Shown here piece by piece: positions 46,547-64,000 of a stretch of DNA of 64,000 nt. The stretch's first letter is position 1. Each line of letters starts with the position of its first letter. The position numbers and the translations under genes were made by a program. The notes under the pieces are model-generated. The model was not told the origin of the DNA and ran no database searches. It was given only the letters and a program-made list of their open reading frames with translations. Source of the DNA: an uncultured Flavobacteriales bacterium. Its GTDB lineage: Bacteria > Bacteroidota > Bacteroidia > Flavobacteriales_G > Salibacteraceae. The stretch covers positions 1 to 64,000 of the forward strand of contig CAKZKD010000003.1 in the NCBI GenBank assembly GCA_937121175.1, written 5' to 3'.

Positions 46547-47254
46547 GTGAATGTCCAAACATTATATCTAATTACAGCCAGAGGTGGGTCTAAAGGAATT
46601 CCAGGAAAGAATATTAAACACCTTGGAGGGCAACCACTCATAAAATACAGCATTGAAATTGCGAGGGAATTTGTTCGCGATGAGCTAATATGCATTTCCA
46701 CAGATTCCGATTCAATTATTGAGACAGTAGAAAATTTAGGATTGAATGTTTCCTTCAAACGTCCAGCTTATTTGGCAACAGATAAAGCTGGTAGTTTTGG
46801 TGTGATAAAACATGCATTGGAGTTTTATTTAGACTTGGGGCAAAATATTGATAAAGTCGTACTACTACAACCCACCTCTCCATTTAGAAGCACTAAAGAC
46901 ATTTCAAAAGCAATTGAAGCATGTAGCACTGGTGTTGATATGGCCATGACTGTTAAGGAAACCAATGCCAATCCCTATTACATTCTTTACGAAGAAGATG
47001 AAAAGGGTTGGTTGCAAAAATCTAAAAAGCATGATGCCGTTCGACGACAAGATGTTCCTACAGTTTTTGAAGCAAATGGGGCAGTATACGTCATGCAAAG
47101 TGACAGTATCCTGAAAGCGAATAGCTTTGCTGATTTTAAGCATTTAAAGAAGGTAGTCATGCCTGAAGAGCGATCGTTAGATTTAGATAATATGTTGGAT
47201 TGGGAATTTGCAGAGTTCCTTATTCAAAAAGGGCACATTACTTTTAATTTATAA
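46547..47254 (+). CDS. CMP-nonulosonate (legionaminate/sialate) cytidylyltransferase
   Basis: 235 residues from a GTG that directly follows the preceding stop. The start Y-L-I-T-A-R-G-G-S-K-G-I-P-G-K-N-I carries the CTP-binding R-x-G-S-K signature of NeuA/LegF/PseF enzymes. L-L-Q-P-T-S-P-F-R-S and F-E-A-N-G-A-V-Y-V follow in the usual places. It activates a nine-carbon keto sugar acid with CTP. The neighbouring LegC, LegI and LegG genes make CMP-legionaminate the best guess; a sialic or pseudaminic acid substrate is possible. Confidence 0.85.
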   Translation: MNVQTLYLITARGGSKGIPGKNIKHLGGQPLIKYSIEIAREFVRDELICISTDSDSIIETVENLGLNVSFKRPAYLATDKAGSFGVIKHALEFYLDLGQNIDKVVLLQPTSPFRSTKDISKAIEACSTGVDMAMTVKETNANPYYILYEEDEKGWLQKSKKHDAVRRQDVPTVFEANGAVYVMQSDSILKANSFADFKHLKKVVMPEERSLDLDNMLDWEFAEFLIQKGHITFNL

Positions 47255-47262
47255 GTTTTATA

Positions 47263-48708
47263 ATGGAGGCACTTCTTTCAGAGCGGATAGAGGATTTTTT
47301 ATCTAGGAATGGTGGTAAAAAGGTGGTTGCGGTTCAGGGCCTAGGTTTTGTTGGAGCAGTCATGAGTTTGGTATGCGCAAATGGACTGACAGAAGATTAT
47401 GCAGTTATAGGTGTTGACCTGCCTACCGATGAAGCGATAGCGAAAATAGAAGCATTAAACAATGGAGTTTTTCCAATTTCTTCATCAGACCCCAAGGTAC
47501 AGGAGTATTTTGAAAAGTCTAGAAAGAAATCAAATTTTTTAGCTACTCATGATACTCATGCATATGCGAAAGCTGATGTAATAATCATTGATATTAACCT
47601 GGATGTCGATAAGGTTTCTTGCGAGGAAAATGAACTAGAATCCTATGACGTTAGTTTGGATGGATTTAAGAAGGCCATTCAAACCATCGGAGAAGTATGT
47701 AAATCGGATGTACTTATTTTGGTTGAAACTACTGTTCCTCCTGGGACTTGTCAGTTTGTAGTAAAACCAATTATTGAAGAAGAATTTCAAAAAAGAGGAA
47801 TCGAGTTTGAAGGTTATATTGGTCATAGTTATGAACGGGTAATGCCCGGACCTAAATACATCGATTCCATCCAAAACTTTTATCGGGTTTATTCAGGTAT
47901 CGATGAAAGAAGTGCCGATCGGGTTGAATCATTTTTAAAAACAATAATAAGAACTGACGAATACCCGTTAACTCGACTTTCTCAGACTCATGCTACCGAA
48001 ATGGCCAAAGTATTGGAAAATTCTTTTCGAGCAATGAATATTTCGTTCATTCAAGAGTGGAGTAATTATGCTGAGGAAGCTGGAGTAAATATTTACGAGG
48101 TAATTCAGGCAATAAGAATGCGTCCAACTCATAAAAACATAATGATGCCTGGGTTAGGTGTAGGGGGCTATTGTTTAACTAAAGATCCTTTATTGGCTAG
48201 TTGGTCTAAGCAGACTTTGTTCGAAAGCAAGAACCCGTTGTTGAATTCCGAAAAAGCCGTTCAGGTAAACGATCAAATGCCTTTGCGTGCATTTGACATT
48301 ATTCGAGACAACATCAATGGCGATTTACCCAACAAAGAAGTTTTAGTACTTGGAGTTAGCTATTTAAACGATGTGGGTGATACTCGTTATACTCCCGTTG
48401 AATTGTTGTGCAGAAAGTTACTTCGCTCCGAAACGAATTTAAGTTTGCATGATCCATATCTAAATTATTGGGAAGAATTGGAACGGCCGATAGAAACAGA
48501 ATTTGAAAAGATGTTAGATAGAGACTATGATATGGTTGTAGTTTCAACGGCACACTCAGTTTATAGAAGTAATGATAAGTTATTGGACTACATTACTTCC
48601 AGAAAGAATTTATTTGTGCTTGACTGTTGGGGGGTTTTTTCAGCAGAGGAGTTAACATTGATAAAAGAAAATAATAACATTAAGGTTATAGGTCGAGGAG
48701 ATATTTAA
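47263..48708 (+). CDS. UDP-glucose/GDP-mannose-dehydrogenase-family enzyme
   Basis: 481 residues, a little longer than usual. The Rossmann start V-A-V-Q-G-L-G-F-V-G, V-E-T-T-V-P-P-G-T, and G-V-G-G-Y-C-L-T-K-D-P with the catalytic Cys are all present. This family oxidises C6 of a nucleotide sugar to the uronic acid in two NAD steps. The substrate cannot be fixed; UDP-glucose, UDP-GlcNAc or a related sugar are possible. With the SDR gene next door it may make a uronic acid that is then epimerised or decarboxylated, giving another sugar of the same glycan. Confidence 0.82.
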   Translation: MEALLSERIEDFLSRNGGKKVVAVQGLGFVGAVMSLVCANGLTEDYAVIGVDLPTDEAIAKIEALNNGVFPISSSDPKVQEYFEKSRKKSNFLATHDTHAYAKADVIIIDINLDVDKVSCEENELESYDVSLDGFKKAIQTIGEVCKSDVLILVETTVPPGTCQFVVKPIIEEEFQKRGIEFEGYIGHSYERVMPGPKYIDSIQNFYRVYSGIDERSADRVESFLKTIIRTDEYPLTRLSQTHATEMAKVLENSFRAMNISFIQEWSNYAEEAGVNIYEVIQAIRMRPTHKNIMMPGLGVGGYCLTKDPLLASWSKQTLFESKNPLLNSEKAVQVNDQMPLRAFDIIRDNINGDLPNKEVLVLGVSYLNDVGDTRYTPVELLCRKLLRSETNLSLHDPYLNYWEELERPIETEFEKMLDRDYDMVVVSTAHSVYRSNDKLLDYITSRKNLFVLDCWGVFSAEELTLIKENNNIKVIGRGDI

Positions 48709-48742
48709 GCCAAGGTGGGGTGAATAAAGAAGATTGAATAAA

Positions 48743-49738
48743 ATGAAGAAAGTATTATTAATAGGTGGAGCTGGTTTTATAGGATTAAACATTTGCAAGC
48801 ATTTAGGTGAAAAAGGAGGGTACAAAATCACGATTTTGGATAACTTTTTTCGAGGAAAAAAAGATGAGGTTCTTACCGGGTTGGTTAATAAATATGACAT
48901 CGAAGTATTGACCGGAGATTGTACTTCTCCAGAGGCCTACCTGCAGTTAGAAAAAGACTTTGATCAAGTGTATATGTTGGCTTCAGTGGTTGGAGTAGAG
49001 TACACTCAAAAGATTCCAGAAGAGTTGATTCGAATCAATACAGCGCTAATTTTCAATACCCTAGAATGGTTGAAAACAGCCAGTGTAGGTAAGGTGGTTT
49101 TTACTTCTACAAGCGAGTGCTATGCTGGAACTGTAGAGCAATTTGATTATACAGTTCCAACTCCAGAGGAAGTACCTCTTTGTATCGATGATATTAAGCA
49201 TCCAAGATTTACTTATGCTGTAACCAAAATGCTTGGAGAATCAGGTTTTATACAATATTCTAATGCTTATGGATTTGAATGTACCATTGTCAGGTATCAC
49301 AATGTTTATGGACCTAGAATGGGATTCAAACATGTTATTCCGCAAGTTGTTCAACGTTTTTTAGCAAAAGAAGATCCATTTAAACTCTACGGACACGACC
49401 AAACCAGGTCATTCAATTACATTGATGATGCTGTAAGCGGAACTGTCTTGGCTATGGAAACTGAAAACACCAATGGAGAAATCTTTCACATTGGAGACGA
49501 TGTCGCGGAGATTACTATTGGTGAGCTAGTTCAATACATGGGTACATTAATGAATTTTGAAGGTACTTATGAAAATGTTGAAGCTCATTCTGGTTCTGTA
49601 TCTAGAAGATGCCCAGATGTATCGAAGGCAAGAAATGTATTATCCTACAGTCCTAAAATGGACTGGAAGGACGGTGTAAAATCTACCGTAAATTGGTATG
49701 TTGACTATTTAAAATCAGGAAAAGATGTCTTCGAATAG
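48743..49738 (+). CDS. NAD-dependent nucleotide-sugar epimerase/dehydratase
   Basis: 331 residues from the ATG at 48743; an earlier TTG is less likely. It is an extended SDR with G-G-A-G-F-I-G, the catalytic Y-A-V-T-K, a T-S-T-S-E-C-Y loop and Y-G-H-D-Q-T-R-S-F. The T-S-E rather than T-D-E loop and the G-P-R-M and T-R-S-F segments look more like uronate decarboxylases or 4-epimerases than RmlB-type dehydratases, although LegB proteins also have T-S-E. So it may act after the dehydrogenase, or it may be the 4,6-dehydratase that LegC needs. It overlaps legC by 14 bases. Confidence 0.75.
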   Translation: MKKVLLIGGAGFIGLNICKHLGEKGGYKITILDNFFRGKKDEVLTGLVNKYDIEVLTGDCTSPEAYLQLEKDFDQVYMLASVVGVEYTQKIPEELIRINTALIFNTLEWLKTASVGKVVFTSTSECYAGTVEQFDYTVPTPEEVPLCIDDIKHPRFTYAVTKMLGESGFIQYSNAYGFECTIVRYHNVYGPRMGFKHVIPQVVQRFLAKEDPFKLYGHDQTRSFNYIDDAVSGTVLAMETENTNGEIFHIGDDVAEITIGELVQYMGTLMNFEGTYENVEAHSGSVSRRCPDVSKARNVLSYSPKMDWKDGVKSTVNWYVDYLKSGKDVFE

Positions 49739-50882
49739 TTTTATTCCTTTAAGTGTTCCCAATCTTTCTGGAAACGAATGGAAGTATGCAGAAGATGCCA
49801 TCAAAACGGGATGGGTATCATCAGTAGGTAGTTATGTAGACGAGTTTGAGCAAAAATTTGCAGAATTTGTTGGTGTTAAGAGAGCTATTGCGGTAGTCAA
49901 TGGAACTGCAGCATTGCATATTTCTTTAATGCTAGCAGGGGTGGAGGAAGGAGACGAGGTTATTGTACCAGACCTCACATTTGTTGCTCCTGCCAATGCG
50001 GTTGCTTATTGTAATGCAACGCCCGTATTTCTTGGGTCAGAGTGGAGTACTCTCGGGTTAGACCCCATAATTCTTCAAAAATTTTTGGAGGAAAAATGTG
50101 AACTTAAAGACGGGCAGACTTTTAATAAGAATACCGGAAGGCGAATTGCAGCCATAATCCCAATGCATACATTTGGGAATCCAGTGGACATGGATCCAAT
50201 TCTGAAGTTGTGTCAAACTTCAAATATTCCGGTAATTGAGGATGCTACCGAAAGTCTTGGAAGTTTATATAAAGGAGCCAAAACCGGAAGTTTTGGATTA
50301 CTAGGCTGTTTCAGTTTTAATGGAAACAAGATTATGACCACCGGTGGTGGTGGAATGATTGTTACCAATGATGAAAAACTTGCTGACCGAGCTAAACATT
50401 TGAGTACAACAGCTAAATCTGATCCCATAGAATATGATCACGATGAGATTGGTTACAATTATAGATTGGTTAATGTTTTAGCAGCTATTGGGGTGGGGCA
50501 GCTCGAACAAATGGGTGATTTTGTAGAAACAAAAAGACGCAATTACGATTGTTATATCAAAAACTTGAGCAATGTTCAGGGAATGCAAATGTTTGTTGAG
50601 CAGGAACACAGTGAATCCAATTATTGGATGTATCCCCTTATCTTGGAAACCATCACTCCTATGGATTTAACTCGGGCTTTGGGTGAGAAAAGGATTCAAG
50701 CTCGTCCCGTGTGGAAGCTTATGCATACACTTCCAATGTTTAAACACTGTGAGTCTTTTGGAATTGAAGATTCCGAAGAGATCTACAACAAGGTACTATG
50801 TATTCCTTGCAGCACGGATCTCAGCGAAGAGGATGTAAATCGTGTATGTAAATCATTAGAAGAGGTTGCAAATAATGAATAG
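49725..50882 (+). CDS. legC: LegC-type PLP aminotransferase
   Basis: 385 residues, a DegT/DnrJ/EryC1-family enzyme. The start I-P-L-S-V-P-N-L-S-G-N-E-W-K-Y with T-G-W-V-S-S-V-G, the insertion with F-L-E-E-K-C-E and G-R-R-I-A-A-I-I-P, and F-N-G-N-K-I-M-T-T-G-G-G-G with the PLP Lys are the hallmarks of LegC. It adds the 4-amino group to a 4-keto-6-deoxy-GlcNAc nucleotide, a step of legionaminic-acid synthesis. Its ends overlap the neighbours (14 bases before, 8 after), so it lies in a tightly coupled operon. Confidence 0.88.
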   Translation: MSSNSFIPLSVPNLSGNEWKYAEDAIKTGWVSSVGSYVDEFEQKFAEFVGVKRAIAVVNGTAALHISLMLAGVEEGDEVIVPDLTFVAPANAVAYCNATPVFLGSEWSTLGLDPIILQKFLEEKCELKDGQTFNKNTGRRIAAIIPMHTFGNPVDMDPILKLCQTSNIPVIEDATESLGSLYKGAKTGSFGLLGCFSFNGNKIMTTGGGGMIVTNDEKLADRAKHLSTTAKSDPIEYDHDEIGYNYRLVNVLAAIGVGQLEQMGDFVETKRRNYDCYIKNLSNVQGMQMFVEQEHSESNYWMYPLILETITPMDLTRALGEKRIQARPVWKLMHTLPMFKHCESFGIEDSEEIYNKVLCIPCSTDLSEEDVNRVCKSLEEVANNE

Positions 50883-51897
50883 CAAGACATTAATAATTGC
50901 TGAAGCTGGAGTTAACCACAATGGTGACATTGGAATAGCTAAAAAGCTTGTTGATGTTGCGGCAGAAGCAGGAGCTGATGTTGTTAAATTCCAAACCTTT
51001 AAAGCAAAGAATCTAGTGTCAAAATCTGCGGTTAAGGCAGATTATCAAAAAAGCAATACCGACAACAATGATGATTCTCAACTCAAAATGCTAGAAGCTT
51101 TAGAGTTAGATAACGAGGCTCACTTTAGACTCAACGATTATTGTAATGAGAAGGGAATAAAGTTTCTGTCCACCCCATTTGATCTGGAAAGTTTACAATT
51201 TCTGATGAAGATGGGAATGGATACGATTAAGATTCCGTCTGGTGAAATCACTAACCTTCCTCTGTTAGAGAGTGTAGCTTCCTTTAATAAGAAGGTGATC
51301 CTGTCAACAGGAATGTCAACTTTGGAAGAAATTATTGAAGCCGTAAAAGTTCTAATTGATGGTGAAACAAGGAGAGAGGAAATTACCGTTTTACATTGTA
51401 ACACAGAATATCCGACTCCATTTGAAGATGTGAATTTAAAGGCAATTAAAACTATTCAAGACGCGGTCGGTGTGCAGGTTGGATATTCCGATCATACCTT
51501 GGGAATTGAAATTCCAATTGCAGCTGTGAGTCTTGGAGCAACTATTATTGAAAAGCATTTCACCCTAAGTCGAGAAATGGGAGGTCCGGATCATAGAGCA
51601 TCGCTTGAGCCTCATGAGCTAAGTGAAATGGTTAAGTGCATCAGAAATATTGAAAACGGAATGGGGCACGGAAATAAAGTACCTTCTCCATCTGAAAAAA
51701 AGAATATGGAAATTGCTCGAAAGAGCATTCATTATGGAAAAGATTTAAATCTGGGGCATAAGATTGAATCAGACGATTTGGTTATGAAACGACCAGGGAA
51801 TGGTATTTCTCCCATGTTGTATAAGTCGTTTGTTGGGAAGGTATTGAACAAAGAAGTAGGGGAAGATGATATGCTCAATAATCAAGATTTTGTATGA
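50875..51897 (+). CDS. legI: Legionaminic/N-acetylneuraminic acid synthase
   Basis: 340 residues from the ATG at 50875. The NeuB barrel shows I-I-A-E-A-G-V-N-H-N-G, V-K-F-Q-T-F-K, S-T-P-F-D, Y-S-D-H-T-L-G and E-K-H-F-T-L. The G-G-P-D-H-R-A-S-L-E-P segment and a C-terminal SAF (antifreeze-like) domain near M-K-R-P-G-N-G-I are also seen. It condenses phosphoenolpyruvate with a six-carbon amino sugar to the nine-carbon acid. Gene context favours the 2,4-diacetamido-trideoxy-mannose substrate (LegI) over ManNAc (NeuB). Confidence 0.87.
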   Translation: MNSKTLIIAEAGVNHNGDIGIAKKLVDVAAEAGADVVKFQTFKAKNLVSKSAVKADYQKSNTDNNDDSQLKMLEALELDNEAHFRLNDYCNEKGIKFLSTPFDLESLQFLMKMGMDTIKIPSGEITNLPLLESVASFNKKVILSTGMSTLEEIIEAVKVLIDGETRREEITVLHCNTEYPTPFEDVNLKAIKTIQDAVGVQVGYSDHTLGIEIPIAAVSLGATIIEKHFTLSREMGGPDHRASLEPHELSEMVKCIRNIENGMGHGNKVPSPSEKKNMEIARKSIHYGKDLNLGHKIESDDLVMKRPGNGISPMLYKSFVGKVLNKEVGEDDMLNNQDFV

Positions 51898-53012
51898 AAA
51901 TTGCATTAATTAGTTGTGGTCGATCCGACTTTAGTATTTATCTGCCTTTGATAAAAAGGTTAGATAGCGATTCTTTTTTTGACCTTGATATTATTGCTTT
52001 TGGTACCCATGTTTCCGCTTTTTTCGGAAATACATATCAACTTTTTGAAAAAGAAGGTTTTGAAGTGGCCCATAAAGTTGAGTCCTTGGTCTTAGGTGAT
52101 TCTTCAGAGTCAGTTTCCACTGCCATGGGGCTTACTATGATTAAGTTTTCATCGATATGGAAATCAAATTCATACGATCTAATCATTGTATTGGGTGATC
52201 GATATGAAATGTTTTCTGCGATTGCTGCTTCAGTTCCCTTTAACATTCCAGTCGCACATTTGCACGGTGGGGAAACAACACTAGGAGCCATAGATGATAA
52301 ATTTCGTCACTGTTTATCGTCATTGTCAAAATTACATTTCACATCTACAGAAGAGCATAAAAACAGGGTTATTGAAATTATTGGAACCGATAAACACGTG
52401 TACAATTTTGGAGCGCCTGCACTTGACAATTTAAATGACATTGAGTTGTATTCCGTGTCCGAATTTCAAGAGACATTTAATATTGATATAACCTTGCCTA
52501 CCATTCTGTGTACTTTTCATCCAGAGACGGTAAACTTGGAAAAAAATCATGAATACACTTTGGAGTTAATTGCTGCCTTAGATTCCATTGATAATTATCA
52601 AATAGTGATAACCATGCCAAATGCAGATACCATGGGAACTCACGTTAGAGGCTTGTTACAAAACTTTATTCAGAAAAAGGATAACATTATCGGAATTGAG
52701 AATTTTGGAACTCGAGGTTATTATACCTGTATGAATCATTGTTCGTTTTTATTGGGCAATACTTCTAGTGGTATTATTGAAGCTGCATCTTTTAGTAAGT
52801 ATGTGATTAACCTTGGAGATCGACAAAAAGGAAGAACACAAGGCAAAAACATATTGAACGTTGAAATAATTTCTTCCGAGATTGTAAAGTATGTAAAAAG
52901 CATAGCAGCAAGGCCAAGTTTAGACAAAAACAATATTTATGGAAATGGAAACGCAAGTGAAAAAATCATTCATTCGTTGAAGCAATTCCACGAATCTAAT
53001 AACTCGATTTAG
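51894..53012 (+). CDS. legG: Hydrolysing nucleotide-sugar 2-epimerase, LegG/NeuC-type
   Basis: 372 residues; the ATGA overlap with legI suggests coupling. The family pattern V-L-G-D-R-Y-E-M, H-L-H-G-G-E-T-T-x-G-A-I-D-D-K-F-R-H and the C-terminal G-N-T-S-S-G-I-I-E-A are present. NeuC/LegG enzymes invert C2 and release the nucleotide, producing the free manno-configured sugar for the synthase. Placed right after LegI it should work on the 2,4-diacetamido-2,4,6-trideoxy sugar nucleotide. Confidence 0.87.
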   Translation: MKIALISCGRSDFSIYLPLIKRLDSDSFFDLDIIAFGTHVSAFFGNTYQLFEKEGFEVAHKVESLVLGDSSESVSTAMGLTMIKFSSIWKSNSYDLIIVLGDRYEMFSAIAASVPFNIPVAHLHGGETTLGAIDDKFRHCLSSLSKLHFTSTEEHKNRVIEIIGTDKHVYNFGAPALDNLNDIELYSVSEFQETFNIDITLPTILCTFHPETVNLEKNHEYTLELIAALDSIDNYQIVITMPNADTMGTHVRGLLQNFIQKKDNIIGIENFGTRGYYTCMNHCSFLLGNTSSGIIEAASFSKYVINLGDRQKGRTQGKNILNVEIISSEIVKYVKSIAARPSLDKNNIYGNGNASEKIIHSLKQFHESNNSI

Positions 53013-53020
53013 TGGCAGTT

Positions 53021-53665
53021 ATGAAGGAGGATTTATTAATTATTGGTGCCGGTGGTCATGCAATTGTATTGGTCGACATTGCCAATAAAATGGAAAGGTT
53101 TAATTCCATCGGATTAATCGATAACCAGGTGCTAAAAGGTAATGTTGTTTGTGGTGTACCTGTGGTTGGTTCCGATTCCGATTTAGGGTCCATGCTTGAT
53201 GAAAACCCAAATTTAAAGGTTATTATTGGTATTGCAAACAATGCAATTCGACATAAAATTTACCTTAGACTTAGTGGGATTTTTAAACTCGCTAGTTTTG
53301 CAACTTTAATTCACCCTTCCGCGCAAATTGGAGTTGAAACTAAAATTGGACATGGTGTTGCAATTATGGCAGGCAGCATAATCAATTCGGAGACGCATGT
53401 CGATGACTTTTCAATAGTTAATACCCGGGCAAGTTTAGATCATGAAAACTACCTAGGTGCGTTTGCAAGTGCGGGACCCAATGTGGCTACGGGAGGTAAT
53501 GTTAAAGTGGGGGAGGGCAGCGCGGTGGAAATTTCTTCAACCATTGCCCATAATCTAACAATTGGTGAAAATACGATTATTGGTGCTGGATCGGTTGTTC
53601 TTAAGAATTGCGATTCAAATTCCGTTTATTATGGAACGCCAGCCAAGTTTATAAGAAAAAAATGA
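53021..53665 (+). CDS. PglD/NeuD-type sugar O- or N-acetyltransferase
   Basis: 214 residues from the ATG at 53021; a GTG three codons earlier overlaps the previous stop and is possible. The N-terminal PglD-like Rossmann part has I-I-G-A-G-G-H-A. A left-handed beta-helix of hexapeptide repeats follows, with His in S-L-D-H-E at the place of the catalytic His of PglD, and Y-Y-G-T-P-A-K near the end. In Leg clusters the enzyme at this step (LegH) acetylates the new 4-amino group; NeuD would O-acetylate a sialic acid. Position after legC, legI and legG favours LegH. Confidence 0.8.
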   Translation: MKEDLLIIGAGGHAIVLVDIANKMERFNSIGLIDNQVLKGNVVCGVPVVGSDSDLGSMLDENPNLKVIIGIANNAIRHKIYLRLSGIFKLASFATLIHPSAQIGVETKIGHGVAIMAGSIINSETHVDDFSIVNTRASLDHENYLGAFASAGPNVATGGNVKVGEGSAVEISSTIAHNLTIGENTIIGAGSVVLKNCDSNSVYYGTPAKFIRKK

Positions 53666-53667
53666 AA

Positions 53668-53695
53668 AAATACCTTAGACAATAAGTCGGTATTT
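53668..53695 (+). other. Intercistronic hairpin between acetyltransferase and hisF-like genes
   Basis: AAATACC pairs with GGTATTT and, after a 3-base bulge, GAC with GTC around AATAA. There is no T run, so it is more likely an RNA processing or stability element than a terminator. Confidence 0.45.
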
Positions 53696-53708
53696 AAGCA
53701 AGAAATAA

Positions 53709-54566
53709 ATGAGTGTATATAGAGTAATCCCTAGGTTAGACATAAAAGGACCTAATTTGGTTAAGGGGATACATATGGAAGGCCTAAGAGTATTAGGACA
53801 GCCCGATCGATTTGCCGAATACTACTATCAAACCGGTGCAGATGAACTGATCTTTATGGATGTAGTTGCTAGCTTGTATGGTAGAAACAGTTTGAAGGAC
53901 ATCATTTCTCTAACAGCGAAAAAAATATTTATTCCCCTTACCGTAGGTGGAGGATTAAGAACCTTAGAAGATATTAATGAAGTGTTGCGGGCAGGAGCCG
54001 ATAAAGTGTGTTTAAATACAGCAGCAATTAACGATCCCGACATTATTAAAAACGCCTCAAAGAAATTTGGGTCTTCTACCATTGTAGTTGCCATTGAAGC
54101 CATTAAGGAAAGTAATGGGAAGTACTTGGCTTATACTGATAATGCTCGTGAGTATACCGGAGTTGATGTGTTTGAATGGGCTGAACGAGTTCAGGATATG
54201 GGGGCTGGTGAAATTTATATTACATCGGTCGATCGCGAAGGAACTGGTGAAGGGTTTGACTTAGAACTTATTAAAGAAATTGCAAGTAAAGCTAGTATCC
54301 CCGTAATAGCTCATGGCGGTGCAGGAAAAGTGCAGCATGTTATTGATAGTATACAATCAGGAGGGGCAGATGCCGTCTCTGTTGCTTCGCTCTTACACTA
54401 CGAAACCATAAATCAGTTAAAGGCTGATACCGATTCCAATCAAAAAGAAGGAAATACTGAGTTTCTTAAAAACGCAAGAAGCTTTAATAGCATTCAAGCA
54501 ACCAGTTTGCAAGACATAAAGAGTCAAATGATTAATGCAGGTATTTCTTGCCGTCAACTAGGATAA
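53709..54566 (+). CDS. HisF-like ammonia-channel subunit of sugar amidation (WbuZ type)
   Basis: 285 residues, a HisF barrel with a longer tail. Asp11 and Lys19 of HisF are kept in L-D-I-K-G-P-N-L-V-K-G, a form typical of the WbuZ subgroup. The second cyclase residue, Asp130, is Glu (A-I-E-A). The ~35 C-terminal residues are extra compared with histidine HisF. No other his genes are present. It is expected to bind the HisH-like glutaminase encoded next and carry ammonia to an N-acetyl-sugar amidotransferase rather than to make imidazole-glycerol phosphate. Confidence 0.85.
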   Translation: MSVYRVIPRLDIKGPNLVKGIHMEGLRVLGQPDRFAEYYYQTGADELIFMDVVASLYGRNSLKDIISLTAKKIFIPLTVGGGLRTLEDINEVLRAGADKVCLNTAAINDPDIIKNASKKFGSSTIVVAIEAIKESNGKYLAYTDNAREYTGVDVFEWAERVQDMGAGEIYITSVDREGTGEGFDLELIKEIASKASIPVIAHGGAGKVQHVIDSIQSGGADAVSVASLLHYETINQLKADTDSNQKEGNTEFLKNARSFNSIQATSLQDIKSQMINAGISCRQLG

Positions 54567-54567
54567 A

Positions 54568-55221
54568 ATGAAAGAAAAGCTTATAGTAATTATTGATTAT
54601 AACCTTGGAAACCTTTTCAGTGTTAAGCATGCCTGTGACCATGTTGGGTTAAATACGGTTACTTCGAATGACGTTGAATTAATCAACAAGGCCGATGCGC
54701 TAATTCTTCCTGGTGTTGGTGCGTTTGGAGAAGCGATGAACAACATCAACGAACTCGATATAAAAGAAAGTATTGTAAATAGAGCCAAGGAAGGAGTTCC
54801 TCTACTTGGAGTTTGTTTAGGATTACAGTTGTTGTTTGAAGAAAGCGAGGAGTTTGGTCATCAAGAAGGTTTGGGCTTATTGGCTGGAAGTGTTAAAAGA
54901 TTGCCATCTAGTTCTTCCGATGGACAAAAATTTAAAGTTCCCCAAATTTCCTGGAACACCATTCATGGAGAATCGAAACCTTGGAGCAGTACCATTTTGA
55001 ATTCAGTCGATGATGGTGAGTATTTTTATTTTGTTCACTCCTACTATGTATCACCAAGTGATGAGTCTGAAATTCTCTGTACTACGGAATATGCCGGTAT
55101 CAAATATTGTTCGGGTATTATGAAAAATAATATTATTGCCGTTCAGTTTCATCCTGAGAAAAGTGGTGAAAAAGGAATATCGGTTTACCGAAATTGGGCA
55201 ATTCAAAATGATCTAATATAA
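54568..55221 (+). CDS. HisH-like glutamine amidotransferase (WbuY type)
   Basis: 217 residues, a class I glutaminase. The triad is Cys83 in G-V-C-L-G-L-Q, with His195 and Glu197 in Q-F-H-P-E-K-S-G. It starts I-D-Y-N-L-G-N-L-F-S-V like HisH. It should release ammonia from glutamine and pass it through the HisF-like protein. One base separates it from the hisF-like stop, and its stop overlaps the next ATG as TAATG, so the three are made together. Confidence 0.88.
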   Translation: MKEKLIVIIDYNLGNLFSVKHACDHVGLNTVTSNDVELINKADALILPGVGAFGEAMNNINELDIKESIVNRAKEGVPLLGVCLGLQLLFEESEEFGHQEGLGLLAGSVKRLPSSSSDGQKFKVPQISWNTIHGESKPWSSTILNSVDDGEYFYFVHSYYVSPSDESEILCTTEYAGIKYCSGIMKNNIIAVQFHPEKSGEKGISVYRNWAIQNDLI

Positions 55222-56447
55222 TGTCAGATAATTTAGAAGCATACTACGGACTACCTCAAGAGGTGAAGTTTTGCAAAAGATGTGTAATCAGTAATCAGCG
55301 ACCTGCATCTGCTGTAGAGTTGAAACATAAAAAAGACAGCAAAAAGACTACCATGAATCTTGATGAAGAGGGGGTTTGTGATGCTTGTCGAGTTGCTGAA
55401 AATAAAGATGGCATTGACTGGAAAGACCGTGAAGAAAAATTATTACAACTGTTAGATAAGTACCGTTCCAATGATGGAAGTTACGATTGCTTAGTTCCTG
55501 GAAGTGGGGGTAAAGACAGTGCTTATCAGGCTCATGTGCTTAAGTATAAGTATGGAATGAATCCATTGACCATAACTTGGCCTCCGATATTGTATACTGA
55601 TTATGGTTATAAGAATTGGAAAAATTGGATTGATAGTGGATTTGACAACATATCATTCAATCGTAATGGAAAAGTTATGAAGCTTTTGACCCGACTTTCT
55701 ATTGAGAATCTTTTCCATCCCTTCCAAACGTTTATGCTTGGGCAGAAGAATTTGGCTCCAAAAATTGCGGCTAAATACGGAATATCTCTAATCTTCTATG
55801 GAGAGAATGAGGCAGAATATGGGAACCCAATTGCAGATACCAGTACTTCACTTCGAGACAAGTCATTCTTTAGCTACAAACATTTAGACGATGTTTTTCT
55901 TGCAGGCTTATCATTAAAAGAGTTGCGTGAGAAATACAATGTGGAACACAAGGATGTCCTATCCTTTTTACCACCTACCGAAGAAGAATTATCAGGAAGT
56001 GATATTCAGGTTCATTACCTTGGATATTATTTGAAATGGACTCCACAAGAGGTTTATTATTATGCAGTTGAGAATACAGGGTTTAAGGCACGACCATTCA
56101 GAACGCAAGGAACTTATAGCAAGTACAACAGTATTGATGACAAGATCGACGATCTTCACTACTACACTACCTATATGAAATTCGGATTGGGTAGAGCAAC
56201 ATACGATGCTTCTCAGGAAATACGAAACTATCACATTACTAGAGAGGAAGGCGTTGCACTAGTGAATCGATTTGATGGGGAGTTTCCAGATCGTTATTTT
56301 GATGAAATTATGGATTACATCGAATTGGACGCTGATAAATTTCATCAGCTAGCAGACGATTTTAAATCTCCTCATTTGTGGGGTAAAGATTCCTCGGGAA
56401 ATTGGAAATTGCGTCATAACGTTGCAGGTACAGGACTAGAAGACTAA
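55221..56447 (+). CDS. N-acetyl sugar amidotransferase (WbuX/PseA type)
   Basis: 408 residues. The N terminus has C-K-R-C and C-D-A-C pairs that may bind zinc. The PP-loop S-G-G-K-D-S (residues 95-100) binds ATP. Y-Y-L-K-W and a long helical C-terminal part complete the family picture. WbuX/WbpG/PseA enzymes turn an N-acetyl group on a sugar into an acetamidino group with ammonia from the HisH/HisF pair. Behind legC/I/G it should amidinate the nonulosonate, or its precursor. The exact carbon cannot be told. Confidence 0.85.
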   Translation: MSDNLEAYYGLPQEVKFCKRCVISNQRPASAVELKHKKDSKKTTMNLDEEGVCDACRVAENKDGIDWKDREEKLLQLLDKYRSNDGSYDCLVPGSGGKDSAYQAHVLKYKYGMNPLTITWPPILYTDYGYKNWKNWIDSGFDNISFNRNGKVMKLLTRLSIENLFHPFQTFMLGQKNLAPKIAAKYGISLIFYGENEAEYGNPIADTSTSLRDKSFFSYKHLDDVFLAGLSLKELREKYNVEHKDVLSFLPPTEEELSGSDIQVHYLGYYLKWTPQEVYYYAVENTGFKARPFRTQGTYSKYNSIDDKIDDLHYYTTYMKFGLGRATYDASQEIRNYHITREEGVALVNRFDGEFPDRYFDEIMDYIELDADKFHQLADDFKSPHLWGKDSSGNWKLRHNVAGTGLED

Positions 56448-59051: not shown

Positions 59052-59777
59052 ATGAAAGAAGTTACAATAGGAAGCTGGGTTACACTTGCAAATTATTCAA
59101 TTGTTGAACTAATGGCTCATGCTGGATTCGATTGGTTATGCGTTGATATGGAGCATTCTACTGTAGACTATGGGGATATGCTTCACATGATTGCCGCAAT
59201 TCAATCCAAAGGAATTAGTGCATATGTGCGGGTTGGTTCAAATAATGATCGAGTAATTAAACGAGCGCTAGACGCTGGAGCAGATGGCATTATTGTACCA
59301 ATGGTCAATTCCAAACAAGACGCAATTGAAGCCGTAAATTCCTGCTTTTATCCGCCAATTGGGAAAAGAGGAGTTGGTTTGGCTCGCGCACAAGATTACT
59401 CTTTTGGTTTCGAAAAATACCGAGAGGGTAAGTCTAAGGATATAGATTTAATAGTTCAAATTGAACACATTGATGCCATTAATAACCTGGATGAAATCCT
59501 CAATGTTGAGCATGTTTCTGGTAGTTTTATTGGTCCGTATGATTTGTCTGGTTCGCTTGGTATTCCCGGGGAATTTGAAGACTCGAGGGTGTTGGACGCT
59601 TTAAAGAAGTATGAAGATGAAGCTCCTAAGTATGGCAAAAAAATGGGAGTTCATGTCGTGCAGCCCGAAGGAGAATTGTTAAAAGAAAAGATGGCCCTGG
59701 ATTATAACTTTATCGCATTTAGTTTAGATACTTTTTTCCTAGGGCAAAAAATTAGAGAAGAACTGGCTAAAATTTAG
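59052..59777 (+). CDS. HpcH/HpaI-type class II pyruvate aldolase
   Basis: 241 residues. V-D-M-E-H-S-T, V-P-M-V-N-S, Y-P-P-I-G-K-R-G-V-G and the metal-binding Glu and Asp in I-V-Q-I-E-H and F-I-G-P-Y-D-L-S-G-S-L-G place it in the HpcH/HpaI family. These divalent-metal enzymes join pyruvate and an aldehyde to a 2-keto-3-deoxy acid, or split one. The KdsB-like gene 8 bases downstream activates such acids with CMP. It therefore may build a ulosonic acid for the surface glycan; this is inference. Confidence 0.82.
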   Translation: MKEVTIGSWVTLANYSIVELMAHAGFDWLCVDMEHSTVDYGDMLHMIAAIQSKGISAYVRVGSNNDRVIKRALDAGADGIIVPMVNSKQDAIEAVNSCFYPPIGKRGVGLARAQDYSFGFEKYREGKSKDIDLIVQIEHIDAINNLDEILNVEHVSGSFIGPYDLSGSLGIPGEFEDSRVLDALKKYEDEAPKYGKKMGVHVVQPEGELLKEKMALDYNFIAFSLDTFFLGQKIREELAKI

Positions 59778-59785
59778 ATGATTAT

Positions 59786-60568
59786 ATGTCAAAGAAGAAA
59801 ATAATTGGAGTAATTCCTTCCCGAATGAAGGCTACTCGCTTTCCGGATAAACCACTTTTCGAACTGGACCATGTACCGATGATCGGGCATGTCTATATGC
59901 GCAGCAAATTAAGTGGGATTTATGATCGTCTGGTTGTTGCAACATGCGATCAAGAAATTGGGGATTATATAGAGAGTATCGGAGGAGAGTATGTGATGAC
60001 CAAGGATACACATGAGCGAGCTACTGATCGGACTGCCGAGGCTGTCGATATTATTGAAGAAAATGAGGGGATATCGTTCGATGTCATCTCCATGATTCAG
60101 GGAGATGAACCCTTATTAGTTCCTCAAATGTTGGTAGACGTAAATCAACCCTTAATCGATGATGACACCCTTTCTGTTTCTAATTTGACTTCCGAAATCT
60201 TAGAGTTGGAAGATCAGGAGGATCCGAACGAAGTGAAAGTCGTATTTGACAAAGATTGGAATGCACTTTATTTCTCTCGAGAGGCTATACCTTCTAGAAA
60301 GAAATATGATGGAGATCTTAAGCGTTACAGACAGCTTGGAATCATATCCTTTCAGCGGGCCTTCTTAAGGAAGTATAGCACTATGGAGCAAACTCCACTA
60401 GAGATATACGAATCTGTTGATATGATGAGGGTGTTAGAAAATGGATATAAAATTAGAATGGTGGAGACCAAGTTTCAGTCTATCGGAGTGGATACCCCTG
60501 GTGATGCCGCCAGAGTAGAGGAGTTGATTAAAAATGATCCATTAATTTCGAGTTATGAAAGAAGCTGA
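59786..60568 (+). CDS. KdsB-like CMP-ulosonate cytidylyltransferase
   Basis: 260 residues. The KdsB pattern is clear: I-P-S-R-M-K-A-T-R-F-P-D-K-P-L, Q-G-D-E-P, P-N-E-V-K-V-V-F-D, A-L-Y-F-S-R-E-A-I-P, and G-V-D-T-P-G-D at the end. Blocks that bind the sugar differ from E. coli KdsB: R-H-L-G-I-Y-G-Y-R there reads R-Q-L-G-I-I-S-F-Q here, and S-G-T-E-R reads R-A-T-D-R. A substrate other than Kdo is therefore possible. It overlaps the next gene by 14 bases. Confidence 0.82.
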   Translation: MSKKKIIGVIPSRMKATRFPDKPLFELDHVPMIGHVYMRSKLSGIYDRLVVATCDQEIGDYIESIGGEYVMTKDTHERATDRTAEAVDIIEENEGISFDVISMIQGDEPLLVPQMLVDVNQPLIDDDTLSVSNLTSEILELEDQEDPNEVKVVFDKDWNALYFSREAIPSRKKYDGDLKRYRQLGIISFQRAFLRKYSTMEQTPLEIYESVDMMRVLENGYKIRMVETKFQSIGVDTPGDAARVEELIKNDPLISSYERS

Positions 60569-61538
60569 TATAAGGAATAGAGATACTTTTAATGAGTACA
60601 TACGGCTGAGTGAACTTGATGCGGAAACATATTTTGCAGATCGTTCGAAATACTTTTCAATTGATTGCCCTGCATGTGGTAGTCAGGGCAAACCCTATTT
60701 AGAGAAAAATTCATTCAAATATCAAACTTGTCCAACTTGTGATTCATTTTATGTATCTCCTCGTCCGCCAATTGAGCAGTTTGAGGCTTACTATGTGGAT
60801 TCACCAAGTACAAAGTATTGGGTGGAATATTTTTTTAAGCCGATGATTGATGCTCGAAGGGTTAAGATGTTTCAACCTAGAGCAAAGTTCTTGGCAGATC
60901 GATTAGATAATGATGGTTTAACTATTGGAGATGTTGGCGCCGGGTTTGGACTGTTTCTATCTGAACTAAAAAAAATTAGGCCTAACAATAGTTTGGTGGC
61001 TATTGAACCGTCTGTCGATATGTCCAAGTTGTGCAGGGAAGAGGGCCTAGAAGTTATACCTAGCCTGCTAGAAGAAATAACCGATAAAGTCGAGTTCTTT
61101 GATGTTCTTACAGCGTTCGAACTTTTTGAGCATTTAAATGACCCAAGAGACTTTGTCCAAAAAATACATGGTCTACTTAAGCCGGGTGGAACCTTTTTAT
61201 TCACTACTCTGAATGGATTAGGTTTTGATATTCAGATGCTCCAGGAAAAGAGTAAGTCAATTTCTCCTCCACATCATCTTAATTTTTTCAATCCAAACTC
61301 AGTTAAGGTTTTATTAAAAAATTGTGGCTTCGATCATGTAGAGGTTGAAACGCCTGGTATATTGGACTGGGATATTGTAGAGGGCATGCATAAAAATGAA
61401 GAGGTAGACTTGGGTCCCTTTTGGGAAAAACTATCTAAGAGTGGGTCAGTAGAGGCGAAGCAAGATCTTCAGCAATGGATTTCTCGAAACGGATATAGTT
61501 CTCACATGCGTGTTATTGCAAAAAAGGAAGTGAAATGA
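60555..61538 (+). CDS. SAM-dependent methyltransferase with N-terminal zinc ribbon
   Basis: 327 residues. C-P-A-C and C-P-T-C (residues ~37-62) form a zinc ribbon. Class I methyltransferase motif I is G-D-V-G-A-G-F-G-L-F with A-I-E-P-S as the SAM-binding acidic strand, and F-E-L-F-E-H-L-N-D-P follows. This layout is common in sugar C- or O-methyltransferases of polysaccharide clusters. It overlaps the KdsB-like gene before and the dehydrogenase gene after (ATGA), so it acts in the same pathway. Confidence 0.82.
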   Translation: MKEADIRNRDTFNEYIRLSELDAETYFADRSKYFSIDCPACGSQGKPYLEKNSFKYQTCPTCDSFYVSPRPPIEQFEAYYVDSPSTKYWVEYFFKPMIDARRVKMFQPRAKFLADRLDNDGLTIGDVGAGFGLFLSELKKIRPNNSLVAIEPSVDMSKLCREEGLEVIPSLLEEITDKVEFFDVLTAFELFEHLNDPRDFVQKIHGLLKPGGTFLFTTLNGLGFDIQMLQEKSKSISPPHHLNFFNPNSVKVLLKNCGFDHVEVETPGILDWDIVEGMHKNEEVDLGPFWEKLSKSGSVEAKQDLQQWISRNGYSSHMRVIAKKEVK

Positions 61539-62455
61539 AGATTGTAGTTACGTCAAGATCTTTTTCCAAAAATGAAACTTTGAAGCAAGAACTTGATAAG
61601 TCTTTTTCTGAGGTTAAGTATAACTCCGAAGGACTTTCCTTAGCTGGTCAAGAACTTATTGATTTTGTAGGAGATTCGGATGGCTGGATTGTTGGATTGG
61701 AGCAAGTTGATGCCTCGGTACTTAAATCCTGTACCTCGGTGAAAGTCGTTTCCAAATATGGAGTAGGTTTAGATAATATAAACTTGGAAGACTGCAAGCA
61801 AGTTGGTGTAAAGATTGGATGGAAAGGAGGGGTGAATAAACTCTCAGTTGCTGAAATGGCTTTGGGTTTTATGATTGGCTTATCCAGGAATCTATATTCA
61901 TCTACTTTTCAGCATAAATCGGGTTTATGGAACAAGGACGGAGGGGCACAACTTACCGGTAAAAAAGTTGGGATTATTGGATACGGTCATATTGGTCAAG
62001 AAGTAAGTAGAATGTTAGTTCCATTCAAATGCAGCATTTTGGCAAACGATATTATCAATATTGATCATTTGTGTAACCACCGAGTTCGGTTCGCAGAGAA
62101 ACAAGAGATCTTTGAAACCTGTGATGTCATAACTATTCATACTCCGTTAACGGATAAAACTCTGGGCATTATTAATGAAAAAGTACTGAAAATCATGAAG
62201 CCCAATGCTATATTTATTAATACGGCACGCGGCCCATTGGTAGTTCAAAATGACCTCAAGGTAGCTCTGAAAAACAGTCAGATACATGGGGCTGCTATCG
62301 ATGTGTATGAAGAAGAACCTCCTGGTGATTTAGAGTTCTTAAACCTTGAAAATTTAGTTTGTACTCCGCATATAGGTGGTAATTCTAAAGAGGCGGTATT
62401 AGCCATGGGAATGAGTGCTATTACTGAACTTCGGTCGCAAATAGCCAATTCCTAA
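61535..62455 (+). CDS. D-isomer-specific 2-hydroxyacid dehydrogenase
   Basis: 306 residues. The NAD-binding core has G-I-I-G-Y-G-H-I-G-Q, N-T-A-R-G-P-L-V with the catalytic Arg region, a Glu in E-E-P-P-G-D, and the catalytic His in T-P-H-I-G-G-N-S. It resembles phosphoglycerate-dehydrogenase-like enzymes without the ACT domain. Between a ulosonate activation gene and an oxidoreductase it may reduce or oxidise a 2-keto or 2-hydroxy sugar acid. The ATGA overlap couples it to the methyltransferase gene. Confidence 0.82.
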   Translation: MKIVVTSRSFSKNETLKQELDKSFSEVKYNSEGLSLAGQELIDFVGDSDGWIVGLEQVDASVLKSCTSVKVVSKYGVGLDNINLEDCKQVGVKIGWKGGVNKLSVAEMALGFMIGLSRNLYSSTFQHKSGLWNKDGGAQLTGKKVGIIGYGHIGQEVSRMLVPFKCSILANDIINIDHLCNHRVRFAEKQEIFETCDVITIHTPLTDKTLGIINEKVLKIMKPNAIFINTARGPLVVQNDLKVALKNSQIHGAAIDVYEEEPPGDLEFLNLENLVCTPHIGGNSKEAVLAMGMSAITELRSQIANS

Positions 62456-62456
62456 T

Positions 62457-62483
62457 CCGTACTCAATTCGAGAGTGGTTTTTT
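62457..62483 (+). terminator. Weak hairpin terminator inside the polysaccharide locus
   Basis: CCGTACTC pairs with GAGAGTGG (one mismatch, two wobbles) over AATTC, followed by TTTTTT. The rest of the 157-base gap has only the promoter box at 62579. Confidence 0.5.
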
Positions 62484-62578
62484 AGAATGTCCCTCATTTA
62501 ATTCCTATTATTGAAAATTGAATTAAAATTAGCCCATTTTGGGGTGTTTTTGAGGTAGCTAGAGAGCTTAAAGAAAAC

Positions 62579-62586
62579 TACTTTTG
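62579..62586 (+). promoter_or_regulatory. -7 box TACTTTTG for the last visible operon
   Basis: TAnnTTTG match 26 bases upstream of the ATG at 62613. With the hairpin before it, it marks a new transcription unit. Confidence 0.5.
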
Positions 62587-62612
62587 AAACACAATTAATC
62601 TTACTAGTTAGA

Positions 62613-63629
62613 ATGGAAAAACTAAAAGTAGGTATCGCTGGGTATGGAGTTGTAGGTCGCAGAAGGCGAAACTTTATCGATCAGCATCCTTTGTTTGAAA
62701 CAGTGGCTGTTTGTGATCAGTTGTTCAGTGAGAACGAAACTGACCACGATGGGGTAAAAGCGTTTAAGAACTATGAAAAGCTATTGGAACAAGATCTGGA
62801 TGTGCTTTTTGTTTGCTTGCCTAATTTCTTAGCGGCTCAAGTAACCGTATCTGGTCTTCAAAAAAAACTACATGTGTTTTGCGAAAAACCCCCAGGGAGA
62901 AACGTTCAAGATATTCAGAATGTAATCGATGTTGAAAAGCAATATCCTGAATTGGTGCTCAAATATGGGTTTAATCACAGGTATCATGATAGTGTTACTA
63001 AAGCGTTAGAAATAATTCAATCTGGCGAACTGGGTTCCATTATTAACCTAAGAGGTGTGTACGGAAAGAGTAGGGTCGTACCTTTTGATGGTGGTTGGAG
63101 ATCGGAAAGAGAGTTATCTGGAGGAGGAATTTTATTGGATCAAGGAATTCACATGGTGGATTTGTTGAGGCTTTTTGCCGGCGAGTTTTCAGAGGTGAAA
63201 AGTTTTGTAAGCAATGATTATTGGAAACACGATGTTGAAGATAATGCCTACGCATTGCTCCGGAATACAGATGGAATTGTAGCGATGATTCACTCAAGTG
63301 CGACTCATTGGGAACATCACTTTTCTTTATCCATCAGTCTCACCCAAGGTTATCTAAAATTGTCTGGATTGCTAACGGGCTCTAAAAGCTATGGCGAAGA
63401 GCAGCTATTAAAGGGGAAACGGGTTGAGGATTCTAATGGAACATTGAAGGAAGAAAAATTCAAATTCTTAAACGATCATTCTTGGAAAAGTGAAATAGAA
63501 GAATTTGGAAATGCCATAGCAAAAAAAGGTCGAATCTTAAATGGAACTAGTTTAGATTCACTGAGAACTATGGAATTGGTTTATAAGATTTATGCTGCTG
63601 ATGACGAGTGGCAAGCAAAATTTAAGTAA
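62613..63629 (+). CDS. Gfo/Idh/MocA-family oxidoreductase
   Basis: 338 residues. It starts G-I-A-G-Y-G-V-V-G-R-R with the nucleotide-binding turn. C-E-K-P-P-G-R has the catalytic Lys, and G-G-G-I-L-L-D-Q-G-I-H-M-V-D the acting His. It should oxidise or reduce a sugar with NAD(P). Its own promoter box and the neighbouring SIS gene suggest a small operon that feeds the ulosonate block. It is not closely similar to the Gfo/Idh/MocA protein at 38.8 kb. Confidence 0.83.
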   Translation: MEKLKVGIAGYGVVGRRRRNFIDQHPLFETVAVCDQLFSENETDHDGVKAFKNYEKLLEQDLDVLFVCLPNFLAAQVTVSGLQKKLHVFCEKPPGRNVQDIQNVIDVEKQYPELVLKYGFNHRYHDSVTKALEIIQSGELGSIINLRGVYGKSRVVPFDGGWRSERELSGGGILLDQGIHMVDLLRLFAGEFSEVKSFVSNDYWKHDVEDNAYALLRNTDGIVAMIHSSATHWEHHFSLSISLTQGYLKLSGLLTGSKSYGEEQLLKGKRVEDSNGTLKEEKFKFLNDHSWKSEIEEFGNAIAKKGRILNGTSLDSLRTMELVYKIYAADDEWQAKFK

Positions 63630-63631
63630 GG

Positions 63632-64000
63632 ATGAAGGATTTAGATCAAATATTAAAAGGAGCAACAACTTTTAGTAGTTATGCGAGTGAATATTTTGCT
63701 CATTTGAACGAGTTACTAAATAATTTAGATAAGAATGCATTAGAGCAGTTCGAACAGGCTATCTGGGATGTTCAACGTTCTGGAAGTACTATGTTTATTG
63801 CTGGTAATGGAGGTTCTTCGGCCACGGCGTCCCACATAACCAACGATTTTGGAATGTTAAATCAAAAGGGGACAGAACTTACTGGTAAGCCTTTTCGTTT
63901 GATTGCTCTTACGGACAATATGCCCATTATAACCGCTATTTCTAATGATTTTGGATATGATGATATTTTTTTACGCCAGCTGCATCTAAGCTATAATGAT
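63632..64000 (+). CDS. SIS-domain sugar isomerase, GmhA-like, 3' end outside window
   Basis: Starts at the ATG at 63632, 2 bases after the preceding stop; 123 codons are open to the window edge. M-F-I-A-G-N-G-G-S-S-A-T-A-S-H-I-T-N-D-F is the phosphosugar-binding loop of GmhA-type SIS proteins, and A-L-T-D-N-M-P-I-I-T-A follows as in sedoheptulose-7-phosphate isomerases. It may isomerise a phosphorylated sugar for the ulosonate block. Because the C-terminal part is missing, the catalytic His and Glu cannot be checked. Confidence 0.8.
   Translation, partial: MKDLDQILKGATTFSSYASEYFAHLNELLNNLDKNALEQFEQAIWDVQRSGSTMFIAGNGGSSATASHITNDFGMLNQKGTELTGKPFRLIALTDNMPIITAISNDFGYDDIFLRQLHLSYND

Follow-up and report, generated by a model that had tools for sequence, protein, structure and literature searches.

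A candidate non-Kdo CMP-ulosonate pathway built around an HpcH/HpaI aldolase and a divergent KdsB paralogue in a Flavobacteriales bacterium

The ulosonic acids of bacterial glycans, 3-deoxy-D-manno-octulosonic acid (Kdo) and the sialic, legionaminic and pseudaminic acids, are in all pathways known to us made by synthases dependent on phosphoenolpyruvate (PEP). An operon at the end of a 64,000-nucleotide stretch of DNA from an uncultured Flavobacteriales bacterium (the window, positions 1-64000 of contig C3 of a 3.73 Mb genome) appears to have in common with the Kdo pathway (KdsD, KdsA, KdsC, KdsB) an SIS isomerase, condensation with a C3 unit, phosphate removal and a KdsB-fold CMP-transferase. 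It departs from that pathway in having an enzyme of the pyruvate aldolase family, HpcH, for PEP-dependent KdsA, in the altered sugar site of its KdsB-like protein, here called KdsB2, and in its additional dehydrogenases, AroB-like phospholyase, hydrolase and methyltransferase, and separate KdsA and KdsB genes are present in the same genome. With the nonulosonic acid pathways (NeuB, LegI or PseI with NeuA, LegF or PseF) the predicted end, a CMP-activated 2-keto-acid sugar, is common, and in sister operons the likeness extends to a PseF/LegF-like transferase and sometimes a DUF386 protein of the sialate-anomerase type, whereas NeuB-type PEP synthase and NDP-aminosugar steps are missing. HpcH is of the same family as the class II aldolases HpaI, GarL and RhmA and has the same catalytic residues, but falls under the catabolic cut-offs and is encoded next to a CMP-transferase inside an operon for glycan biosynthesis. 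Within the 3-dehydroquinate synthase superfamily the AroB-like protein is by score a member of TIGR04425 (AroB-related putative sugar phosphate phospholyase), with residue changes of its clade that differ. In its enzymes the operon qualifies as neither a Kdo nor a nonulosonate pathway, and by analogy it may work like the former with KdsA exchanged for an aldolase.

KdsB2 and its linkage to HpcH

A first-pass annotation proposed that the operon serves a second CMP-ulosonate pathway apart from that for Kdo. The altered site of KdsB2, the presence of the genome's own KdsA and KdsB elsewhere and the linkage of KdsB2 with HpcH all speak for this and give good support to a CMP-ulosonate pathway other than that for Kdo. 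In an alignment of 21 ordinary KdsB proteins, E. coli KdsB (used for numbering; its sequence is from printed alignments, with the ends completed) and 10 KdsB2 copies, signature positions were taken as those kept in at least 20 of the 21 ordinary enzymes and lost in all KdsB2. The changes D50C, N96M, H181Q, E210D and Q211M are found in ten of ten copies, and the signature further includes G75 to A/C, Y185 to I/M and L209 to V/I/C. H181, E210 and Q211 are presumed, from their conservation pattern, to line the Kdo pocket. Kept in KdsB2 are R10, R15, K19, R78, Q98, D100, R157, E204, E207, R213 and also D235, and those of the CTP loop and Mg binding among them (R10, R15, K19, D100 and D235) are conserved in all ten. 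The roles of R10, R15 and K19, and the two metal-binding aspartates of KdsB, have been described (PMC3149649). KdsB2 has the CTP/Mg residues of the CTP_transf_3 family without the residues of a Kdo-type sugar site. The ten copies form one clade that is split from ordinary KdsB at 99/99 support, the score against the KdsB equivalog TIGR00466 is just under the cut-off (154.8 of 155.2 bits), and every KdsB2 carrier among 25 surveyed genomes also has an ordinary KdsB. Judged by these features, KdsB2 is not the Kdo enzyme but a paralogue whose sugar site is altered in a manner specific to its clade.

The same annotation suggested a neighbourhood survey of KdsB-HpcH pairs. With a profile from six HpcH proteins (alignment A1) and a threshold of E 1e-60 or better, 395 genomes of the phylum yielded 15 matches, of which 12 are beside a CMP-transferase, either KdsB2 or PseF/LegF-like, and three stand alone with no CMP-transferase adjoining. 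An independent run of a KdsB2 profile (A3) over this set gave nine copies, spread over eight genomes. Eight of the nine adjoin an independently found HpcH, and the ninth is on a contig of 7.3 kb whose end lies about 1.3 kb before the gene. Co-occurrence on genomes has a Fisher p of about 1e-10 uncorrected for kinship; six of the eight belong to a single genus, so the independent occurrences come to three genera, a Chitinophagaceae locus (L041) and a viral contig. The latter (L134, an IMG/VR contig of 5.8 kb classed as viral), found by KdsB2 alone, carries three consecutive genes, for a 6-phosphogluconolactonase-like protein, HpcH and KdsB2. The annotation of an alphaproteobacterial plasmid, from Acuticoccus, shows a run of HpcH, cytidylyltransferase, phosphoglycerate-dehydrogenase-like protein, haloacid dehalogenase-type (HAD) phosphatase and oxidoreductase. 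Phage records gave only ordinary AroB-type matches, and none for HpcH or the Acuticoccus cytidylyltransferase. For the KdsB2 subfamily HpcH is practically obligatory.

The genome's ordinary KdsB and its KdsA are on contig C4, in company with a KdnA-like aminotransferase and a KdnB homologue. At C4:318197-321855 (L008:6197-9855) KdsB is divergent to the genes for these last two, of which the KdnB homologue scores 373 bits to 5k8c, the Kdo 8-oxidase, and this arrangement predicts 8-amino-Kdo in the organism. Beside KdsA in the Kdo block (C4:312496-313506; L008:496-1506) is a fusion of a fructose-6-phosphate-aldolase/TalC-like protein with CBS domains. No KdsD (SIS plus CBS, TIGR00393) reaches the cut-off in the genome, and the fusion may replace it by making arabinose 5-phosphate through aldol addition. 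There is also a third CMP-ulosonate block, at C3:181835-184199 (L007:9835-12199), with an SpsF-like cytidylyltransferase, NeuB/SpsE-like synthase and KdsC-like phosphatase.

The operon and its relatives

The genes concerned are as follows, with those beyond the window end given by their contig coordinates.

57817..59046, + strand: probable glycosyltransferase, 6 bases before the aldolase gene; no Pfam match
59052..59777, + strand: HpcH/HpaI class II 2-keto-3-deoxy acid aldolase; PF03328, 120 bits, over cut-off
59786..60568, + strand: KdsB2, predicted CMP-ulosonate synthetase of a non-Kdo subfamily; PF02348, 144 bits
60555..61538, + strand: class I methyltransferase dependent on S-adenosylmethionine, with an N-terminal CxxC motif pair; PF13489, 71.6 bits
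61535..62455, + strand: D-2-hydroxyacid dehydrogenase (phosphoglycerate-dehydrogenase-like); PF02826, 172 bits
62613..63629, + strand: Gfo/Idh/MocA oxidoreductase; PF22725 and PF01408
63632..64000 in the window, complete at C3:63632-64249, + strand: GmhA-like SIS sugar-phosphate isomerase; PF13580, over cut-off
C3:64246-64995: short-chain dehydrogenase/reductase (SDR), directly downstream of the SIS gene
C3:64970-66058: AroB-like phospholyase; TIGR04425
C3:66051-66707: PF04199 metal hydrolase
C3:66707-68512: ABC transporter

The six open reading frames (ORFs) of 59052-64249 from HpcH to the SIS isomerase, all on the + strand, are in the order first reported, and Pfam and NCBIfam agree on each assignment. 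They make up only two thirds of the operon, the rest being on contig C3 beyond the window. Apart from a gap of 157 bases 5′ of the Gfo/Idh gene, each gene abuts or overlaps the next, and this spacing matches the expectation for a single operon. Its gene order is not due to chance, as it recurs in another genus of the same family (g6; genome G008) and in the Chitinophagaceae locus. The absence of a KdsA-type synthase was correctly reported: no KdsA- or NeuB-type PEP-dependent synthase is encoded by the ORFs and downstream contig genes of the operon, and the sole KdsA seen is the one on C4. The operon adjoins a surface-sugar gene cluster, and the NeuB-type LegI at 50866-51897 belongs to a separate legionaminic-type block upstream, outside the operon. 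ORF translations place this block at 45494-56447, where HisF/HisH-like and PseA-like amidotransferase genes suggest an acetamidino derivative of a legionaminic-type sugar.

The GmhA-like protein is of the SIS fold family and falls short of the gmhA equivalog (94.5 of 209 bits), and the EKP, DQGIH and FNHRxH motifs of the Gfo/Idh proteins are invariant in 12 loci. The upstream glycosyltransferase has a weak, sub-cut-off match to the BFO_1060-family glycosyltransferase, and homologues occupy the corresponding place in G008 (46%) and the L074 operon (29-30%). Its AlphaFold model, of moderate confidence (pLDDT 71.5, from three sequences), resembles GT-B proteins.

Related loci were gathered by searching the family, order, class and phylum with TIGR04425 and by one scan of genome contigs. 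The eleven-gene run from glycosyltransferase through ABC transporter is kept in G008 (L042) at 46-77% identity, the operon as a whole being conserved in that genus at 55-77%. L041, from a different family, keeps HpcH, KdsB2, the dehydrogenase, Gfo/Idh, SIS, SDR, AroB-like protein, hydrolase and methyltransferase at 41-64%, and L042 and L041 alike have the gene order of this operon. Loci of this operon's type, type A, add Gfo/Idh, SIS, SDR, AroB-like protein and often the PF04199 hydrolase, whereas those of type C (L090-L092, L095-L097 and Acuticoccus) mostly add a HAD phosphatase and an NAD epimerase. L093 and L094 carry KdsB2, Gfo/Idh, methyltransferase, HpcH, HAD, dehydrogenase and SIS, and a transaldolase is seen in L094. 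The place of phosphate removal is thus taken by HAD or inositol-monophosphatase-type enzymes in some loci and by the AroB-like protein in others. The methyltransferase is kept in G008 (70%), L041 (43%), L058 (42%) and L161 (42%) and absent from L057, L061 and L074. It is found in about half of type A loci, so that methylation would be a variable tailoring step. The DUF386 protein is that of L057, L061 and L062, where it fits a hemiketal substrate.

A route through the aldolase, and its alternatives

HpcH scores below every catabolic equivalog cut-off (170 of 369 bits for the HpaI model), and its residues D32/E34, H35, R60, E138 and D164, which we take to have the catalytic roles of their HpaI counterparts, are invariant in six of six linked homologues in alignment A1. 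In L093 and L094 an SIS isomerase, HpcH, a HAD phosphatase and KdsB2 stand in for KdsD, KdsA, KdsC and KdsB respectively, and this one-for-one replacement together with the invariant residues makes HpcH plausible as the maker of the keto acid. It is likely that the HpcH of the operon makes a 3-deoxy-2-keto acid from pyruvate. We consider, with somewhat better than an even chance (roughly 0.55), that the operon makes, CMP-activates and probably helps to export a non-Kdo ulosonate, with HpcH replacing KdsA as the condensing enzyme. What the sequences show directly is the gene content, the conservation of the operon, the intact catalytic residues and the KdsB2 signature with its linkage to HpcH; from these we infer the substrates, the order of steps, the pyruvate donor, the roles of the AroB-like protein and D-2-hydroxyacid dehydrogenase, the transfer and the export. 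The GmhA-like isomerase would provide an aldose phosphate, to whose aldehyde HpcH would add pyruvate (or hydroxypyruvate) in place of KdsA. Phosphate would be removed by the AroB-like phospholyase here, and by a HAD or inositol-monophosphatase-type phosphatase in relatives. The dehydrogenases, SDR, hydrolase and methyltransferase would tailor the chain, KdsB2 would join the hemiketal to CMP and the upstream GT-B protein would transfer the activated sugar. A supply of hydroxypyruvate to HpcH by the dehydrogenase was kept as a sub-variant only, since operons lacking HpcH retain the dehydrogenase.

Several points count against this route. The argument of the first-pass annotation that an aldolase must act because KdsA is missing is weak, as sister operons (L057, L074, L040 and L144 of Leisingera) have neither HpcH nor KdsA/NeuB, and still carry the other enzymes with a transferase that is PseF/LegF-like and not KdsB2. 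In these and in L039 HpcH is not within reach, and an HpcH search of the whole genomes of L057 and L074 gave no match. The linked HpcH proteins are poorly separated in the tree from the three stand-alone homologues, with no clean clade distinct from catabolic copies recovered. The operon has no phosphatase unless the AroB-like enzyme serves as one, and a carbocyclising enzyme is hard to fit in a plain ulosonate route.

The dehydrogenase is at the center of the main alternative. Its Arg232, Glu261 and His279, the general D-2-hydroxyacid dehydrogenase triad, are invariant in 17 loci, and it falls short of the phosphoglycerate dehydrogenase equivalog (204.6 of 454 bits). It is present in all surveyed loci with HpcH and a CMP-transferase except L097 (a contig stretch of 12 kb) and the viral contig L134, which is short, and in loci without HpcH, namely L039, L040, L057, L074 and plasmids of Thalassovita, Sulfitobacter, Gemmobacter, Pararhizobium and Leisingera. 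Because of this constancy with or without HpcH, formation of the keto acid by oxidation is retained as the main rival: the SIS protein would give an aldose (heptose) phosphate, Gfo/Idh would oxidize C1 to the lactone, the PF04199 hydrolase would open this and the dehydrogenase would oxidize C2 of the aldonate, so that the CMP-transferase would activate a 2-ulosonate that is not 3-deoxy, with HpcH auxiliary, for instance in C3 epimerization or chain extension. Beside the cytidylyltransferase the dehydrogenase is more constant than HpcH, and in L090 (L090:5682-7454) a cytidylyltransferase-like CTP_transf_3 domain is fused ahead of it in one 590-residue protein. Lactonases are nearby in some loci (6-phosphogluconolactonase in L092, SMP-30 in L142 and L146) and the dehydrogenase family takes in 2-ketogluconate reductases. 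Against such a route, HpcH is nearly obligatory for the KdsB2 subfamily itself, L039, L040, L058 and L074 lack the PF04199 hydrolase, and the action of that hydrolase as a lactonase is conjecture. Oxidative formation is possible, though on balance we think it unlikely.

Alternatively there could be two products, a CMP-ulosonate made by HpcH and KdsB2, and a separate cyclitol (acid) made by the SIS, AroB-like, SDR, Gfo/Idh and hydrolase proteins and decorating the same glycan. This accords with the type C loci L090 and L095-L097, where HpcH and KdsB2 occur without the AroB-like block, and with the occurrence of that block without HpcH, but it is improbable given that a CMP-transferase and D-2-hydroxyacid dehydrogenase accompany the AroB-like protein in all type A operons, pointing to a single product. 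That KdsB2 is just a second CMP-Kdo synthetase, like KpsU of E. coli capsules, with a catabolic aldolase that merely happens to be nearby, would agree with the name Kdo cytidylyltransferase given to it by NCBIfam subfamily models (271 versus 255 bits), but is highly improbable in view of the changed signature positions, a linkage far beyond chance, the catabolic cut-offs missed by HpcH and the lack of CMP-transferases beside its stand-alone copies.

The AroB-like enzyme, carbocycles and significance

The AroB-like protein exceeds the TIGR04425 cut-off (460 versus 400 bits) and misses the AroB equivalog (286 of 305), and a separate canonical AroB is on contig C28 of the genome. In types A and B nearly all catalytic residues of the canonical AroB set are kept, metal ligands included. 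Among them are the residues that we take to be the equivalents of Lys250, Arg264, Asn268, His271, His275 and His287 of A. nidulans 3-dehydroquinate synthase. Changes in the clade are G140S, G143S and E263Q/I/V, with K186H in most type A copies. The retained arginine, presumed to bind carboxylate, may point to a 2-keto-acid phosphate, and not sedoheptulose 7-phosphate, as the substrate. The AroB-like enzyme might close a carbocycle in the same residue, which would put a CMP-activated carbocyclic or bicyclic (cyclitol-fused) ulosonic acid on the surface; we regard this as doubtful, and know of no described biosynthesis of such an acid.

Other TIGR04425 clusters, type B (L056, L059, L060, L063, L064, L065, L072 and L073), have an SDR, the AroB-like protein and an acetolactate-synthase-like thiamine pyrophosphate (TPP) enzyme where within reach, several of them also having sugar genes of the CDP-glucose type together with a distant HpcH-like protein, and a carbocyclic branched-sugar pathway is possible for them. 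Loci L066-L068, with an ordinary AroB beside shikimate kinase, were rejected as further members. Bradyrhizose, an inositol-fused O-antigen sugar of photosynthetic Bradyrhizobium, has genes that are only tentatively assigned, and an operon of 11 genes with a dTDP-glucose 4,6-dehydratase was described (PMC4743980). By description, not by sequence, type B clusters, which combine sugar-nucleotide dehydratase, TPP enzyme and AroB-like genes, resemble that operon, and since it is they and not the present operon that do, bradyrhizose was set aside as the product.

The open literature searched gave no description of an HpcH/HpaI aldolase with a cytidylyltransferase or KdsB, though subscription literature was outside the search and an earlier description is possible, and in that on TIGR04425, Leptospira rfb and C7-cyclitol glycans none of such a pathway was found. 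The KdsB2 signature would let annotators tell this protein from true CMP-Kdo synthetases, with which it now shares an NCBIfam subfamily name. An AroB-like cyclase in the operon makes a carbocyclic sugar a testable prediction, and the enzymes would supply tools for making new acidic sugars. If the route through HpcH is true, an aldolase with a dedicated CMP-transferase would be a second biosynthetic logic for ulosonic acids.

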